A DNA stretch of 53,291 nt from Candidatus Zixiibacteriota bacterium (GTDB lineage Bacteria; Zixibacteria; MSB-5A5; SM23-73-2). The notes below the pieces were generated by a model, which did no database searches, had not been told where the DNA came from, and saw nothing but the letters and a program-made list of their open reading frames with translations. The position numbers and the translations under genes are program-made. This document shows, piece by piece, positions 41,041 to 49,587 of this stretch (positions are counted from its first letter, which is position 1; each line of letters starts with the position of its first letter). The stretch spans positions 1 to 53,291 of the forward strand of contig JAUWYR010000015.1 in the NCBI GenBank assembly GCA_030615745.1, written 5' to 3'.

Positions 41041-41122
41041 CCTTGTTCGTCATGGACGCCCTCAGCTTGCCCGTATGGGTCCGTGACGCTTTATGGTAAC
41101 GGACAAAGTGTCCGTTACCAAC
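41041..41122. repeat. Two-hairpin element, copy a
   Basis: First palindrome around GTCATGGACGCC...GGGTCCGTGAC in the long form (inserted CAGCTTGCCCGTAT, as in copy d), then GCTTTAT, then GGTAACGGACA-AAG-TGTCCGTTACC, an 11-pair stem. Other copies are at 45481, 46234 and 46833, all in the same orientation. It stands after rseP. Confidence 0.8.
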
Positions 41123-41158: not shown

Positions 41159-41234
41159 GAGCGTTGATAATATGAGTTTTTCAGAGACCAATTAAAAAAT
41201 ACTTGACAGATATGAGAATTTCTTTTTAGGCTTT

Positions 41235-41459
41235 ATGCCAAAGTGGCTATGGGACATCTTCAAATGGATTCATTTCTTCGAGGCGGTCCTGGCTTCCTTG
41301 GCTATTTTAGTATGGCATTTCTTCTTAGTTTTCCTTGAGCCAGAGATATATCCGATTAATTTCAGCATGCTCACTGGAAGGTTAACCGAAAAAGAATTTG
41401 AAGAAAAACACACTCTCGAATACGAAAGGATGAAAGAGGAAGAAAAAGAAGAAGAATAA
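41235..41459 (+). pseudogene. Second C-terminal fragment of a membrane cytochrome b
   Basis: 74 codons: MPKWLWDIFKWIHFFEAV, a hydrophobic helix with the histidine pair of the first copy (IHFF...VWHFF), YPINFSMLTGR and an acidic tail. Codons upstream of the ATG still read YENFFLGF, as in the family, until a TAA 14 codons before. So this also looks like a 5'-truncated cytochrome b gene with a possible re-used start. It resembles the copy at 956-1171 along its whole length. It lies between a repeat element and lepB. Confidence 0.55.
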
Positions 41460-44215: not shown

Positions 44216-44263
44216 AAGAATTCCGCAAGGATCAGGGCTTCCTCATACCCTAAAAACCTATAG

Positions 44264-44355
44264 GGCAGGGATTTTATCCCTGCCTTAACTATAGTGTGGT
44301 GTCTTTAACATTTCTTTACACTGTCATTGCGAGCCCACGTGGGCGAAGCAATCTC
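44264..44355. repeat. Hairpin and REP-like repeat, copy 4
   Basis: GGCAGGGAT-TTT-ATCCCTGCC (44264-44284), nine perfect pairs, which could terminate the GWxTD gene although without a T run. TGTCATTGCGAGCCCACGTG GGCGAAGCAATCTC (44322-44355) is a REP-like copy with an inner CCCACGTGGG palindrome. Confidence 0.65.
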
Positions 44356-44449
44356 TTGCCGAGATTCTTCGCTTTGCTCGGATTGACAGGATAGTAAAGC
44401 TATTTATGAGACACTACACTAGAAAAGCTAACAAAAGTTGCGAGGTTGC

Positions 44450-45052: not shown

Positions 45053-45469
45053 TTACCCTGTGTTATCGGATGTGCTGCCCTTTCCATATTTAAAGTCTCT
45101 AATATGCATCCCATAGATTTCGTTGAAGCCAAATTTCTTATAAAATGCTCTTTTGTCTGGATCAGTTATCAAAACAATATCATAATATCCCTTAAAATGC
45201 GAAATTGCAAGTTTAATTAAATGCTTACCTATCCCTTTCCCTTGATGGAGCTCGAGAACTTCAACTAAAGTGATAAATGCATGCATCGTGCCATCACTTA
45301 TTGCCGTAAGGAAGCTTATCAGCTTGCCATTTTCTCTCGCGGTGATAATTAGATCAGACCCATCTAAAAGCTTCCCTTTAATCTCTCTTGATGGAGGCGA
45401 TTTCCAATTCTGGAAAAAGGAGTCAAGCTCATCTGGAATAACGCTGTCATTTATTCTGTATTCGATCAT
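45053..45469 (-). CDS. GNAT-family acetyltransferase
   Basis: 138 residues. The acetyl-CoA loop HQGKGIGKHLIK (about 95-106) and the C-terminal FYKKFGFNEIYGM are standard GNAT features. The acceptor is unknown. AAGGAGAG, the last bases of two-hairpin copy b (read on the minus strand), lies ten bases before the ATG and may serve as its ribosome site. Confidence 0.85.
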   Translation of the reverse strand: MIEYRINDSVIPDELDSFFQNWKSPPSREIKGKLLDGSDLIITARENGKLISFLTAISDGTMHAFITLVEVLELHQGKGIGKHLIKLAISHFKGYYDIVLITDPDKRAFYKKFGFNEIYGMHIRDFKYGKGSTSDNTG

Positions 45470-45480
45470 TTGTTTTTCTC

Positions 45481-45548
45481 TCCTTGTTCGTCACGGACGC
45501 CTTCGTCCGTGACGCTTTATGGTAACGGACAAGGTGTCCGTTACCAAC
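45481..45548. repeat. Two-hairpin element, copy b
   Basis: GTCACGGACG...CGTCCGTGAC (ten pairs) and GGTAACGGACA-AGG-TGTCCGTTACC (45521-45545, eleven pairs) joined by GCTTTAT. On the minus strand it ends in AACAAGGAGA. It is joined at 45541 to a truncated methyltransferase start. Confidence 0.85.
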
Positions 45549-45633
45549 CAAAGGCGGATACCATTTCAACATCCTCCCAGAGAGGCCAAAGCCAGGTGAG
45601 GTCTTTGTATAGACGGTTAGTGCCTTTTTTCAT
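45541..45633 (-). pseudogene. Truncated methyltransferase start, copy 1
   Basis: 30 codons from ATG 45633: MKKGTNRLYKDLTWLWPLW, then EDVEMV and a stop inside the two-hairpin element. The start resembles N-termini of class I SAM-dependent methyltransferases (YxDLxWLWPxW). The second stub at 46909-47001 has the same length and junction. Of six base differences, four are silent. Confidence 0.55.
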
Positions 45634-45690
45634 ATTTTTCTTTATTCAGCAAGGCATTTTCGCGAGCAAGGTAAAGTGCTAACATTCTTC

Positions 45691-46188
45691 TCAGTAACAG
45701 CGGAATTGATAACCTTTCTCATGGCTGATCGTTAAGGCAGAGGTTCGAAAGGTTGGAATTCCGCCCTTCTTTATTACCTCGTAAGTTTGTTGGAGATTGT
45801 CTGTGAGTAAGAATAGAATAGGTACAGAAACTTGCATAGGGATCGGACGGCCATCTATTACTACTGGACTCCATGTCACAGACCGGACTGCATAACTAAC
45901 AGCTGGGAAGAATGCGGAATCAGTTTTCGTAAGTGATCCTCCAAAAAAATGATCGAAATTTATAGAGAGAATAGTGCCTGCGGAATCCAGTTGAATATTG
46001 ACTTTAAAAGTAGATTCAATGTGAGCTTTCCAGAGGAGAGCAGGATACTTAATACTGTCTTGAAGCGCGCTGTACCCACCTATCGGTGAGGGTGCTTTGA
46101 GTTTCGGCGTTTCTTGGGTGGATTCGCTACAGACCATTGAGAGTATGCTGAATACGACACAAATTATTATGGTTTGCAATATTCTCAT
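45691..46188 (-). CDS. Lipoprotein with TonB C-terminal-like domain
   Basis: 165 residues from ATG 46188 with AAGGAGG upstream. The signal peptide ends in SMVCS. From about residue 40: YPALLWKAHIESTFKVNIQL, a GG-containing strand, then AVRSVTWSPVVIDGRPIPMQ VSVPILFLL resembles the TonB C-terminal domain (periplasmic part that meets receptors or peptidoglycan). The usual membrane anchor and proline-rich linker are missing; a lipid anchor replaces them. Function unknown. Confidence 0.65.
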   Translation of the reverse strand: MRILQTIIICVVFSILSMVCSESTQETPKLKAPSPIGGYSALQDSIKYPALLWKAHIESTFKVNIQLDSAGTILSINFDHFFGGSLTKTDSAFFPAVSYAVRSVTWSPVVIDGRPIPMQVSVPILFLLTDNLQQTYEVIKKGGIPTFRTSALTISHEKGYQFRCY

Positions 46189-46233
46189 ACGTTCCTCCTT
46201 ATGATGCATCGGTAATTCTCATTGCCGAAGCAT

Positions 46234-46302
46234 CTCCTTGTTCGTCACGGACGCCCTCGTCCGTGACGCTTTATGGTAACGGACAAGGTGTCCGTTACCA
46301 AC
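46234..46302. repeat. Two-hairpin element, copy c
   Basis: GTCACGGACG-CCCT-CGTCCGTGAC, GCTTTAT, GGTAACGGACA-AGG-TGTCCGTTACC. Short form like copy b, but without the methyltransferase stub. It lies between the TonB-C lipoprotein (minus-strand start at 46188) and the nuclease-like gene (minus-strand stop at 46336). Confidence 0.85.
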
Positions 46303-46335
46303 AAAAGAACTGCAAACACGCTGTTAGGCAAAGTT

Positions 46336-46806
46336 TCATATGACTTTCAGCCAACTTATTATCTCGTCTGCAATTTTCGTTATGTTGATGGTTTTTTCCT
46401 TGTCAAAGATATTAGGATTTATATTATTCTGCTGCCCTTCAGTTAGTTTGCGTCCTATTAAATATTTACTCACTACATCGTTATTGGCAAACACACATTT
46501 CCCATTTTCATTGGATATGACCCATCTTAAGTATCTGTCAAAATAAATAGGTCTCTTTAATAGTATTTCAGGTTGAAATCCTTTTCCTTCACTACCACCT
46601 ATCCCTATTCTGCCGTGAGAGGTTTTATACAATTTGACCTCTATAAAAACTAATATAGGAAAGGATACGCTTTCTTTACAAATGAGTATATCATTAACAT
46701 TTTTGCTTTTTAAAACCTGAAAATAGAGACTTTCTTTGACTATCCTATCTTGTAATTCCTTTAAAAGCTGATTTCTAAACTTTTCCTCGTTTCTGAACTG
46801 AATCAT
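46336..46806 (-). CDS. Putative PD-(D/E)XK nuclease-like protein
   Basis: 156 residues from ATG 46806 with GGAGG upstream. NDILICKESVSFPILVFIEVK looks like the D...ExK core of restriction-endonuclease-like folds, followed by SHGRIGIGGSEGKGFQPEIL, a pattern seen in type II restriction-like proteins, and RPIYFDRYLRWVI. I cannot identify a precise family. It has GTTATGC just before its leader and GCCTAAC just after its stop, which recall integron cassette boundaries. It may have a defence function with the NTPase gene upstream (inference). Confidence 0.5.
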   Translation of the reverse strand: MIQFRNEEKFRNQLLKELQDRIVKESLYFQVLKSKNVNDILICKESVSFPILVFIEVKLYKTSHGRIGIGGSEGKGFQPEILLKRPIYFDRYLRWVISNENGKCVFANNDVVSKYLIGRKLTEGQQNNINPNIFDKEKTINITKIADEIISWLKVI

Positions 46807-46832
46807 TATAGCCTCCAAAATTTTGCATAACT

Positions 46833-46917
46833 CTCCTTGTCCGTCACGGACGCCTTCAGCTCGCCCGTATGGGTCCGTGACGCTTTATGGTAACGGACAA
46901 GGTGTCCGTTACCAACC
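46833..46917. repeat. Two-hairpin element, copy d
   Basis: Long form as copy a: first palindrome with the insert CAGCTCGCCCGTATGGG, then GCTTTAT and GGTAACGGACA-AGG-TGTCCGTTACC. Fused to the second methyltransferase stub at 46909. Confidence 0.85.
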
Positions 46918-47001
46918 AAAGACGGATACCATTTTAACATCCTCCCACAGAGGCCAGAGCCAGGTGAGGTCTTTGTAGAGACGGTTTGTGCCTTTTTTCA
47001 T
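46909..47001 (-). pseudogene. Truncated methyltransferase start, copy 2
   Basis: 30 codons from ATG 47001: the first 20 residues are identical to copy 1 (MKKGTNRLYKDLTWLWPLWE) despite four silent base changes; then K for E and V for A near the end. It stops in copy d of the repeat at the same codon. Confidence 0.55.
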
Positions 47002-47049: not shown

Positions 47050-49587
47050 TTACGAACTCAATAGCTCACCTATCAATTGTAGCACCTTCCACGGCAGCTT
47101 TTGACCAACTTTGTTCATTAAAAGCACTACTTCCGTATCATCTCTAAACTCGGCTTTAAGCTGTTGGATAAATTTTTTTAAAGAATTCGGACCCTTGTTG
47201 TACTCGCCCCATATCATTTTTTCAGTTTCCGTTTCTAGCAACGTTTCTATTGCTTTTATCCTATTCTGCTTACTTGTATCATCAGGCAAATCAAACCGGA
47301 GTTTGTAAAGCAAGGTTACATGTTGGTAAGGGCATTCCCCTTCTTTCTCTATATATGCAGATACTGTATTATCCAAGGCCATTGCGAGATTAACTTTAAC
47401 CTCTTTATCTGGGTGGGTCTTGTACATTGCTTTGAGATCTATTATGCAGGATTCGATTTTATCAAATGCTTTCCCTCTTCGATACCCAACGGTAGCGTTT
47501 AACAACCCCATGGCAAGGGTTTGTCTTACTTCTTTGAGCGGATAGTCACTGTATAGATCTTTCAGTTTTTTTAGGCAATATTCTATCTTAGCAAACTCGC
47601 CAGGTGTTTCATAAAGTGCAATTGCGTTAACTAAAGCCTGACAAAATTGTTCTCTTACTTCTTTCTCTATACAAACTTTGTGAAGGCGTTCCAATTCTTC
47701 TATTGAAGCTGTCATTTCTTCAAATCTATGTGCTTCTCCGTACTTGATCCCTCCATTGAACAAAGCCTTTGCGAGTTCTTGTCTTACTTGTTTCTCAGGG
47801 TAAGTTTGATGCAGGTTTTTCAACTCTCCTAAATACACTCCCATTTTCGCTAACTGACTAGTAGCTCCATAAATAGTCACTACATTGAACAAAACGCTCG
47901 CGAGTTTTTCTCTAACTTCTTTGTCTGGATACCGTTCGTGGAAGTCTATTAATTGTTTTAAGCTTTCTTCCGTTTTTTGAAACTCATTTGCCTTTGCGTA
48001 ATGGTTGACTGTATTTCCTAGAGCCATGGCAAGTTGACCCCTTAATTCTATGTTAGGAAAGGCTTTTGAGAGGTCCTCATGACTCTGTATCCAATTCTTG
48101 ATCTCTGCATTTTTTATGTCAAAAAAAGGTAAATCCCTAAGATCGCCAGTAAACAGTAAAAGAGCTAAGAAGTACTCAGGAGTTCTTCCTTTGGCTTTAT
48201 TTAACTCTATCCAGAGTTCACCGAGTATTTGTGTTACTTCATCAACAATTTCTTTGTCAAACCTCGATATTAAGAAAATGTTGTAAGAGATTCGAAACGG
48301 CATGTATGGAAGAAGTAGATTTATCCATTTGTTTCGCACATCTTTTTGCCTTATTAATTCTGATCTAAGGTAGTCAGATATCGGATCGGGTTTAATTGCA
48401 AATTTTTGGCCACTAGGAACTAAAATATCTGTATACCCCGAATGTGCTACACTTATGATATTTTCTAAAACTTCATAATGATTTGAAAATAATGTTTCTT
48501 TTAGATATTCTCTATCTTTGATCCAATCGATTGGTGAAATGAGGGATATCAGACAAATGATATTTCTAATATCCTCTATATTCATATTTGTTCGGATCTT
48601 TATGTCCTCCATGTACTTTTCCACCCGTGCGGATAGTACATCTCCTAACATACCTACTTCTCCTATGGTTCGGAAGTATTCTGCGTAATATATGGCATAT
48701 ATAAAACTATTCTTGGATAATCTTTCTATCTGTATGGCTGTGTTCGCATCAATTCCTTGAAAGTTTTCTTTTAAGAATTCAACTATTTCCCCTTTTATAA
48801 GTTCCATAACCGCAACATTGACGCCCTTTGCTTTCAAATCACTTTCAATTGAAGTTTTAAAAATGGGTCTATCCATAAGAAGAAGCTTTATGGCTACTTG
48901 TCTGCATGGAGGATTCAATACAGAATCGATAAGTTTATCTCTGTCTTTGTATCTGGACGGTTCATCTAAGATTAGCAAGGTTTTCTTCTCTATGGGTATT
49001 GGGCTGAAACTACTGTAAGGATGTATGAAGTAAGCAGCCCATTCATTTGTTTTTTCCAATTCCTCAGCGAACTCCATAGCTAATCTCGTTTTACCTGTGC
49101 CACCCGCTCCAATAATAAGTCTAATTCTTTCATGGGTATTGTGTAAGAAATTATGAAGTTCTTTAAGTTCCTCTTTTCTGCCTATGAATTTTTTGTACTC
49201 TAAAAGCTTTTGGATTTCCTTTCTTCTTTTGAACTCTTCAAGTGTGAGGATTGGAATTTCTTTAATTGATCGAACAATTTCTTCTATCTGTTCTTTATAA
49301 CCTTCAAGGATATTTTTAATTTCGGATTTAATTTCTTCTTCTTTTTTCCCTGCAATTTCTTCTTTTAGGAGTTGACGGTATTCCTCTATAGATATTTTCA
49401 CTGTTTTTTGTATAAGATCAGGAATCTTTTCTTCCTGCTCCTTACTCCACTTATCTGGATTTATCTTAACTTCTCCTATAGCCTTGCCTAACGAGAACGT
49501 GATTATTCCGAAAAACGTAAGAGCTGGATTAAGTTCAATGTTAATGCCTTGTTTTTTCAGCCATTCCTTAATTTTTTTCCCGATCAT
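47050..49587 (-). CDS. STAND-type NTPase with 43-residue helical repeats
   Basis: 845 residues. N-terminal helices and coiled coil (1-130) with a short hydrophobic segment (LNPALTFFGIITFSLGKAIG, 19-38). Then an ATPase of the STAND/NACHT type: FIGRKEELKELHNFL (134-148), Walker A GAGGTGKT (160-167), Walker B TLLILDEP (203-210). The C-terminal part (about 510-770) has about six tandem repeats of 43 residues, each like VRQELAKALFNGGIKYGEAH, probably a sensor superhelix of TPR type. This layout is that of antiviral or regulatory STAND proteins (Avs-like), but no effector domain is recognised at the N-terminus. A minus-strand promoter stands at 49748-49776. Confidence 0.75.
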   Translation of the reverse strand: MIGKKIKEWLKKQGINIELNPALTFFGIITFSLGKAIGEVKINPDKWSKEQEEKIPDLIQKTVKISIEEYRQLLKEEIAGKKEEEIKSEIKNILEGYKEQIEEIVRSIKEIPILTLEEFKRRKEIQKLLEYKKFIGRKEELKELHNFLHNTHERIRLIIGAGGTGKTRLAMEFAEELEKTNEWAAYFIHPYSSFSPIPIEKKTLLILDEPSRYKDRDKLIDSVLNPPCRQVAIKLLLMDRPIFKTSIESDLKAKGVNVAVMELIKGEIVEFLKENFQGIDANTAIQIERLSKNSFIYAIYYAEYFRTIGEVGMLGDVLSARVEKYMEDIKIRTNMNIEDIRNIICLISLISPIDWIKDREYLKETLFSNHYEVLENIISVAHSGYTDILVPSGQKFAIKPDPISDYLRSELIRQKDVRNKWINLLLPYMPFRISYNIFLISRFDKEIVDEVTQILGELWIELNKAKGRTPEYFLALLLFTGDLRDLPFFDIKNAEIKNWIQSHEDLSKAFPNIELRGQLAMALGNTVNHYAKANEFQKTEESLKQLIDFHERYPDKEVREKLASVLFNVVTIYGATSQLAKMGVYLGELKNLHQTYPEKQVRQELAKALFNGGIKYGEAHRFEEMTASIEELERLHKVCIEKEVREQFCQALVNAIALYETPGEFAKIEYCLKKLKDLYSDYPLKEVRQTLAMGLLNATVGYRRGKAFDKIESCIIDLKAMYKTHPDKEVKVNLAMALDNTVSAYIEKEGECPYQHVTLLYKLRFDLPDDTSKQNRIKAIETLLETETEKMIWGEYNKGPNSLKKFIQQLKAEFRDDTEVVLLMNKVGQKLPWKVLQLIGELLSS

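Follow-up and report, generated by a model that had tools for sequence, protein, structure and literature searches.

The window analysed here, a stretch of 53,291 nucleotides from a Candidatus Zixiibacteriota bacterium (contig JAUWYR010000015.1 of assembly GCA_030615745.1), contains on its minus strand two open reading frames of 30 codons, at 45633-45544 (copy 1, translation MKKGTNRLYKDLTWLWPLWEDVEMVSAFGW, then stop) and at 47001-46912 (copy 2, MKKGTNRLYKDLTWLWPLWEDVKMVSVFGW, then stop). These stubs lie 1,368 bp apart in the same orientation; both begin like the same methyltransferase gene and end, as the first-pass annotation had noticed, at the same point of a palindromic repeat, the TAA of either stub falling inside GGTTGGTAACGG. 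The repeat is found on the minus strand as E1 (45483..45548), which gives copy 1 its TAA, as E2 (46833..46916) at copy 2, as E3 (46237..46302), which lies without a stub between the two stub copies, and as E4 (41043..41122), intergenic and also without a stub. The genes around them are all on the same strand: an 845-aa AAA/STAND-like NTPase gene before copy 2 (47050..49587), an ORF of 160 aa assigned to no family after E2 (46336..46818), a TonB_C-like lipoprotein gene (weak match) between E3 and copy 1 (45691..46209), and a GNAT acetyltransferase gene directly after E1 (45053..45469).

Up to position 44240 the window is colinear with contig C55 of the congener (G001). The segment between about 44.4 and 49.6 kb includes both stubs and three of the repeats. 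It has no counterpart in the congener contig, whose sequence stops ~1 kb beyond the end of the colinear part, so that this segment is probably an accessory region. Homologues of the GNAT gene at 73–78% DNA identity occur in three genomes (G004, G006 and G008; family f2), and the two f2 loci inspected have neither stub nor repeat in front. Between the right edge of E1, AACAAGGAG, and the GNAT start codon there are 10 nt (45469-45485), and this edge may serve as the ribosome-binding site of the gene; the homologous GNAT gene at L120 has no such AAGGAG in front. The window holds other remnants and repeats too. A further MITE-like repeat occupies 44290-44420; its ends read AGTGTAGTGTCT...AGACACCACACT, and contig C28 of G009 contains an 80% match to it. 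A multihaem cytochrome gene has left a 74-codon remnant at 41214-41459; compared with the congener, this gene has lost its first ~560 codons, and at the junction (TTGACAGA/TATGAG, near 41206) its promoter region (TTGACAGA) meets its 3' part. That E4 marks this deletion junction was considered and rejected, the junction being ~80 bp from E4. Elsewhere in the genome, three C-terminal fragments of 33–42 codons resemble integron-type integrases (C1:18689-18814, C54:20151-20249 and C8:24850-24948; L080, L082 and L083), two of them with a common 97-bp repeat running into the palindrome GGTTTATACAGnCTGTATAACC.

The two stubs belong to a direct repeat of 138 nt, gapless and 96% identical. The shared block runs from ~9–12 nt 5' of the ATG to ~8 nt past the palindromic repeat. 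Its left end is abrupt, further 5' similarity being no better than between shuffled sequences (0.30 and 0.57), and beyond the palindromic repeat the loci are unrelated, with the GNAT gene after copy 1 and the 160-aa ORF after copy 2. A weak AAGAAA is all that precedes the ATG. The first-pass annotation counted 20 identical residues and four third-base differences: the four are there, all synonymous (codons 5, 8, 15 and 18), and the identity even extends to residue 22, but two of the six base differences are replacements, E23K and A27V. The last seven codons of each stub consist of a spacer and the edge of the repeat. In copy 1 the methyltransferase remnant, i.e. the ATG and codons 1–23 (MKKGTNRLYKDLTWLWPLWEDVE), covers 45565..45633 and the spacer ATGGTATCCGCCTTTG covers 45549..45564; in copy 2 the remnant (ending in WEDVK) covers 46933..47001 and the spacer ATGGTATCCGTCTTTG covers 46917..46932. 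The spacer is common to these two copies only, and is part neither of the methyltransferase nor of the consensus repeat. In both copies the stretch between codon 23 and the repeat reads ATGGTATCCGYCTTTG, the first 11–12 bases of which do not come from the methyltransferase and are absent beside every other copy of the repeat examined.

The searches gave one clear full-length homologue of the stubs, a gene of Zixibacteria bacterium SM1_73 (G009, LJVD01000023; locus L033) with 79% identity over 24 residues. This gene is intact, with ~250 codons from the matching ATG and a Methyltransf_25 match at E=5.7e-18, and has no copy of the repeat beside it. DNA identity to it is 52/69 for copy 1 and 50/69 for copy 2 over codons 1–23, and collapses to 2/18 and 1/18 respectively over codons 24–29, which places the end of the methyltransferase part at codon 23. 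The proposal of a truncated methyltransferase stands, the fragment coming from the class I SAM-dependent family, with the homology confined to codons 1–23 of the 30. The 23 remaining codons precede the SAM-binding Rossmann domain, which the stubs do not contain: they are the remnant of a class I SAM-dependent methyltransferase, not a member of that class, and most likely non-functional. A search for the full-length gene, as had been suggested, gave SM1_73 as the single clear case (the GTDB contigs being scanned with the SM1_73 enzyme as query), and the stub's own genome and the congener contain no full-length methyltransferase of this type. The family is patchy, present in 37 of the 133 Zixibacteria genomes (E <= 1e-20), and its plasmid-borne relatives are distant (~42% identity or less). 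The repeat lies beside no methyltransferase locus that was examined in relatives.

The repeat reads GTTGGTAACGGACACCTTGTCCGTTACC-ATAAAG-CGTCACGGACGARGGCGTCCGTGACGAAC, with a pyrimidine-rich left edge and a purine-rich right edge, and folds into two hairpins in inverted order with stems of 11 bp (z -4.6 to -6.5), the first headed by GTTG and the second by GTTC. A covariance model gave 62 strand-wise matches in the genome, at ~31 places, as the nearly symmetrical element mostly scores twice, once per strand; all 10 related genomes examined gave matches too. The 28 copies inspected are mainly intergenic, often 5–20 bp away from a 3' gene end: 19 overlap no ORF of at least 90 aa and nine overlap such an ORF, seven of these ORFs being putative genes of 92–140 aa. 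The other places inspected show no link to methyltransferase genes, and no direct repeats were evident by eye in the flanks of 24 aligned copies, which were checked for target-site duplications such as a MITE of a DDE transposase would have. Two loop forms coexist in the window. E1 (GTTGGTAACGGAC...GTCCGTGACGAACAAG) and E3 have the short loop, which is the usual form in nearly all relatives; E2 and E4 have a long loop, with an extra CCATACGGGCGAGCT in the second hairpin of E2, a form that this genome otherwise has in a single copy on contig C61; G012 has similar long loops. By two other marks the copies group otherwise: E1 and E2 have GAAGG in the loop where E3 and E4 have GAGGG, and they share a TTTGG edge that differs from that of E3 and E4. 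Loops and arms carry diverse inserts in G012, G005, G009 and G007 (L179-L193), for example CTCGTACGAGCCGTATGGC and GCGGTGAATCC...GGATGAATCC.

Genes for REP-associated tyrosine transposases (RAYTs), the enzymes that move doublets of REP hairpins, accompany such hairpins. In G012 a RAYT gene (L216, C40:17456-17914; NF047646, 118.7 bits, the cut-off being 80) lies between a full doublet of this type, GTTGGTCACGGATGCC...CCGATACCAAC, and, on its other flank, two hairpins of the same types. The stub's own genome has three RAYT genes, none of them flanked by the exact stem of the repeat; one (L219, G000:C25:17644-18111), whose neighbours are a grpE-like and a dnaK-like gene, has GTTG-headed hairpins of another stem on its flanks. 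Five RAYT genes in all (L216, L219, L198, L212 and L217) have flanking hairpins headed by GTTG, not GTAG; a tree built from 20 RAYTs of Zixibacteria groups those of the GTTG and GTGG types together, apart from GTAG (support 89/87). As a Stenotrophomonas RAYT does not cleave the GTTG mutant of its own REP (PMC8266576), the GTTG-type RAYTs of Zixibacteria look like enzymes of a different head specificity.

The double hairpin, the copy number and the RAYT flanking identify the element, on sequence grounds, as a REP doublet (BIME), or REPIN in the terms of PMC3116915, which bears out the earlier view that the sequence truncating the stubs is of a mobile, repeated kind. It resembles the REPINs/BIMEs of Pseudomonas fluorescens SBW25 (two inverted REP hairpins, ~66–84 nt, extragenic, many copies, RAYT-linked; PMC3116915), and also the RAYT-REP units or REPtrons, in which REP hairpins flank the RAYT gene (PMC2817692; PMC8266576), as hairpins of this very type do in G012 and hairpins with a related head in the stub's own genome. 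Its heads, GTTG/GTTC, differ from the GTAG or GTGG of REPtrons and from the GTAG/GTGG tetranucleotide used as a criterion for REPINs; GTAG is nevertheless described as “most often” the head (PMC8266576), which makes it characteristic, not strictly defining. REPs were reported less than 20 bp from the 3' ends of genes and as dimers of elements with different loop lengths (PMC3733652). The present element shares both features, the proximity to 3' gene ends and the unequal-loop dimers, with the GTAG- and CGTC-tagged superfamilies of that study, but neither tag fits it cleanly, and the string GTTG is absent from the text of PMC3733652.

Assuming a transition bias of two to one, one expects 21.7% of the changes in the stubs to be synonymous; at least four out of six have a probability of P = 0.023, and at least four out of five within codons 1–23 of P = 0.009, for a cut picked after the data were seen. 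This lends weak support to selection on the stubs. That the copies diverged under selection for the protein sequence, as first proposed, is possible, on a count of six substitutions; the bias would fit a divergence while the gene was intact, or translation of the stubs, and proves neither of them.

We consider it likely, from the sequences compared here, that a decayed methyltransferase start and the REPIN next to it were copied locally, through ordinary genome decay and not by an element that targets genes. An ancestor would have carried a class I methyltransferase gene and lost its 3' part; the 23 remaining codons, which the 16-nt junction now links to the REPIN, would have been joined to it at that stage, the REPIN supplying the stop codon by chance. 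The resulting segment, consisting of the methyltransferase start, the REPIN and a few bases, would then have been copied once, 1.4 kb away, by recombination or template switching via REPIN homology on one side, with the left end of the copied segment falling ~10 nt 5' of the ATG. The 16-nt spacer, unique to both copies, suggests that the truncation happened once and was then copied; and the differing loop subfamilies of E1 and E2 make it probable that the copying involved recombination inside the REPIN. Recombination or template switching would account for both the shared spacer and the differing loops. A precedent exists in SBW25, with tandem units each made of a 5' flank, a REPIN and a short 3' flank, and with unrepeated DNA between them (PMC3116915). 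On the other hand, those units are closely spaced, whereas the copies here are 1.4 kb apart, with 1.2 kb, two genes and another REPIN between them, and the copied flank is here the start of a gene. The synonymous bias (P about 0.02) is also left unexplained if the stubs never were coding after the split.

The next best account, though a rather unlikely one, is a plain local duplication of stub and REPIN followed by a 15-nt indel in the loop, without recombination between REPINs. It suits the proximity and common orientation of the copies, and the GAAGG base and TTTGG edge that set E1 and E2 against E3 and E4; the shared GAAGG indeed fits it as well as it fits recombination. However, two other long-loop copies carry almost the same 15-nt loop segment, so that a chance indel would have had to recreate, or exactly remove, the mark of a subfamily, and this segment has no flanking direct repeat. 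The first-pass annotation had also suggested an element inserting site-specifically into the methyltransferase gene, by which the repeat would have entered the same codon of two diverged paralogues independently, their 3' parts being lost later. The different loop subfamilies of E1 and E2 and four synonymous changes within 20 codons, as expected of two genes diverging while coding, would suit such a history. Yet the 16 nt are common to both copies, stand beside no other copy examined and match neither neighbour, the genome has no full-length paralogue, ~30 other places carry the repeat with no methyltransferase link at those inspected, and the methyltransferase loci examined in relatives have no adjoining REPIN. 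We find it improbable.

The other suggestion, a stub and element dispersed as one translated unit, does not agree with the distribution either. Stub copies number just two in the genome, both in one 1.4-kb stretch, and the search for further fusions returned none elsewhere in this genome nor in 97 other Zixibacteria genomes; two pattern scans of viral contigs found neither stub nor element, and the element was not found on plasmids. The mobilisation by a RAYT of the REPIN plus ~90 nt of the adjoining gene start is therefore very unlikely, in spite of the sharp ends of the shared block between differing flanks and of the RAYT genes of the genome: the bare REPIN is, by contrast, widely spread. 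The chance is at best slight that RAYT-linked transposition carries gene starts along with the REPIN and makes fused, translated ORFs whose stop the element supplies. Hardly credible, finally, is an attenuator in which a selected Trp-rich leader peptide and hairpins would stand ahead of two genes. There are four Trp codons, two strong hairpins, a gene 10–14 nt downstream in both cases and a synonymous bias; but most of these Trp are conserved residues of the methyltransferase N-terminus, the AAGAAA before the ATG is weak, the downstream genes are unrelated to each other, and E3 stands ahead of its gene without a stub. Two further candidates were rejected. Integron cassettes were suggested by an attC-like GCCTAAC, which precedes E3 and adjoins two other copies; this motif is, however, not enriched (GCCTAAC/GTTAGGC found 9 times over the loci for 14.8 expected), no integron integrase exceeded the TIGR02249 cut-off, and Rfam gave no match. 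An insertion of the element into hairpins already present was judged by the pairing of its flanks: the two flanks of one copy pair no better with each other than with flanks taken from elsewhere (in 382 of 602 shuffles the pairing was as good).

If the stub and its REPIN really were a mobile unit, REPINs could carry coding fragments, which the present evidence does not require. These data show REPIN-RAYT elements in Zixibacteria, and, with the local copying of a decayed gene start and its REPIN as the preferred reading, the two stubs would be a clear, small example of REPINs and gene remnants reshuffled together.
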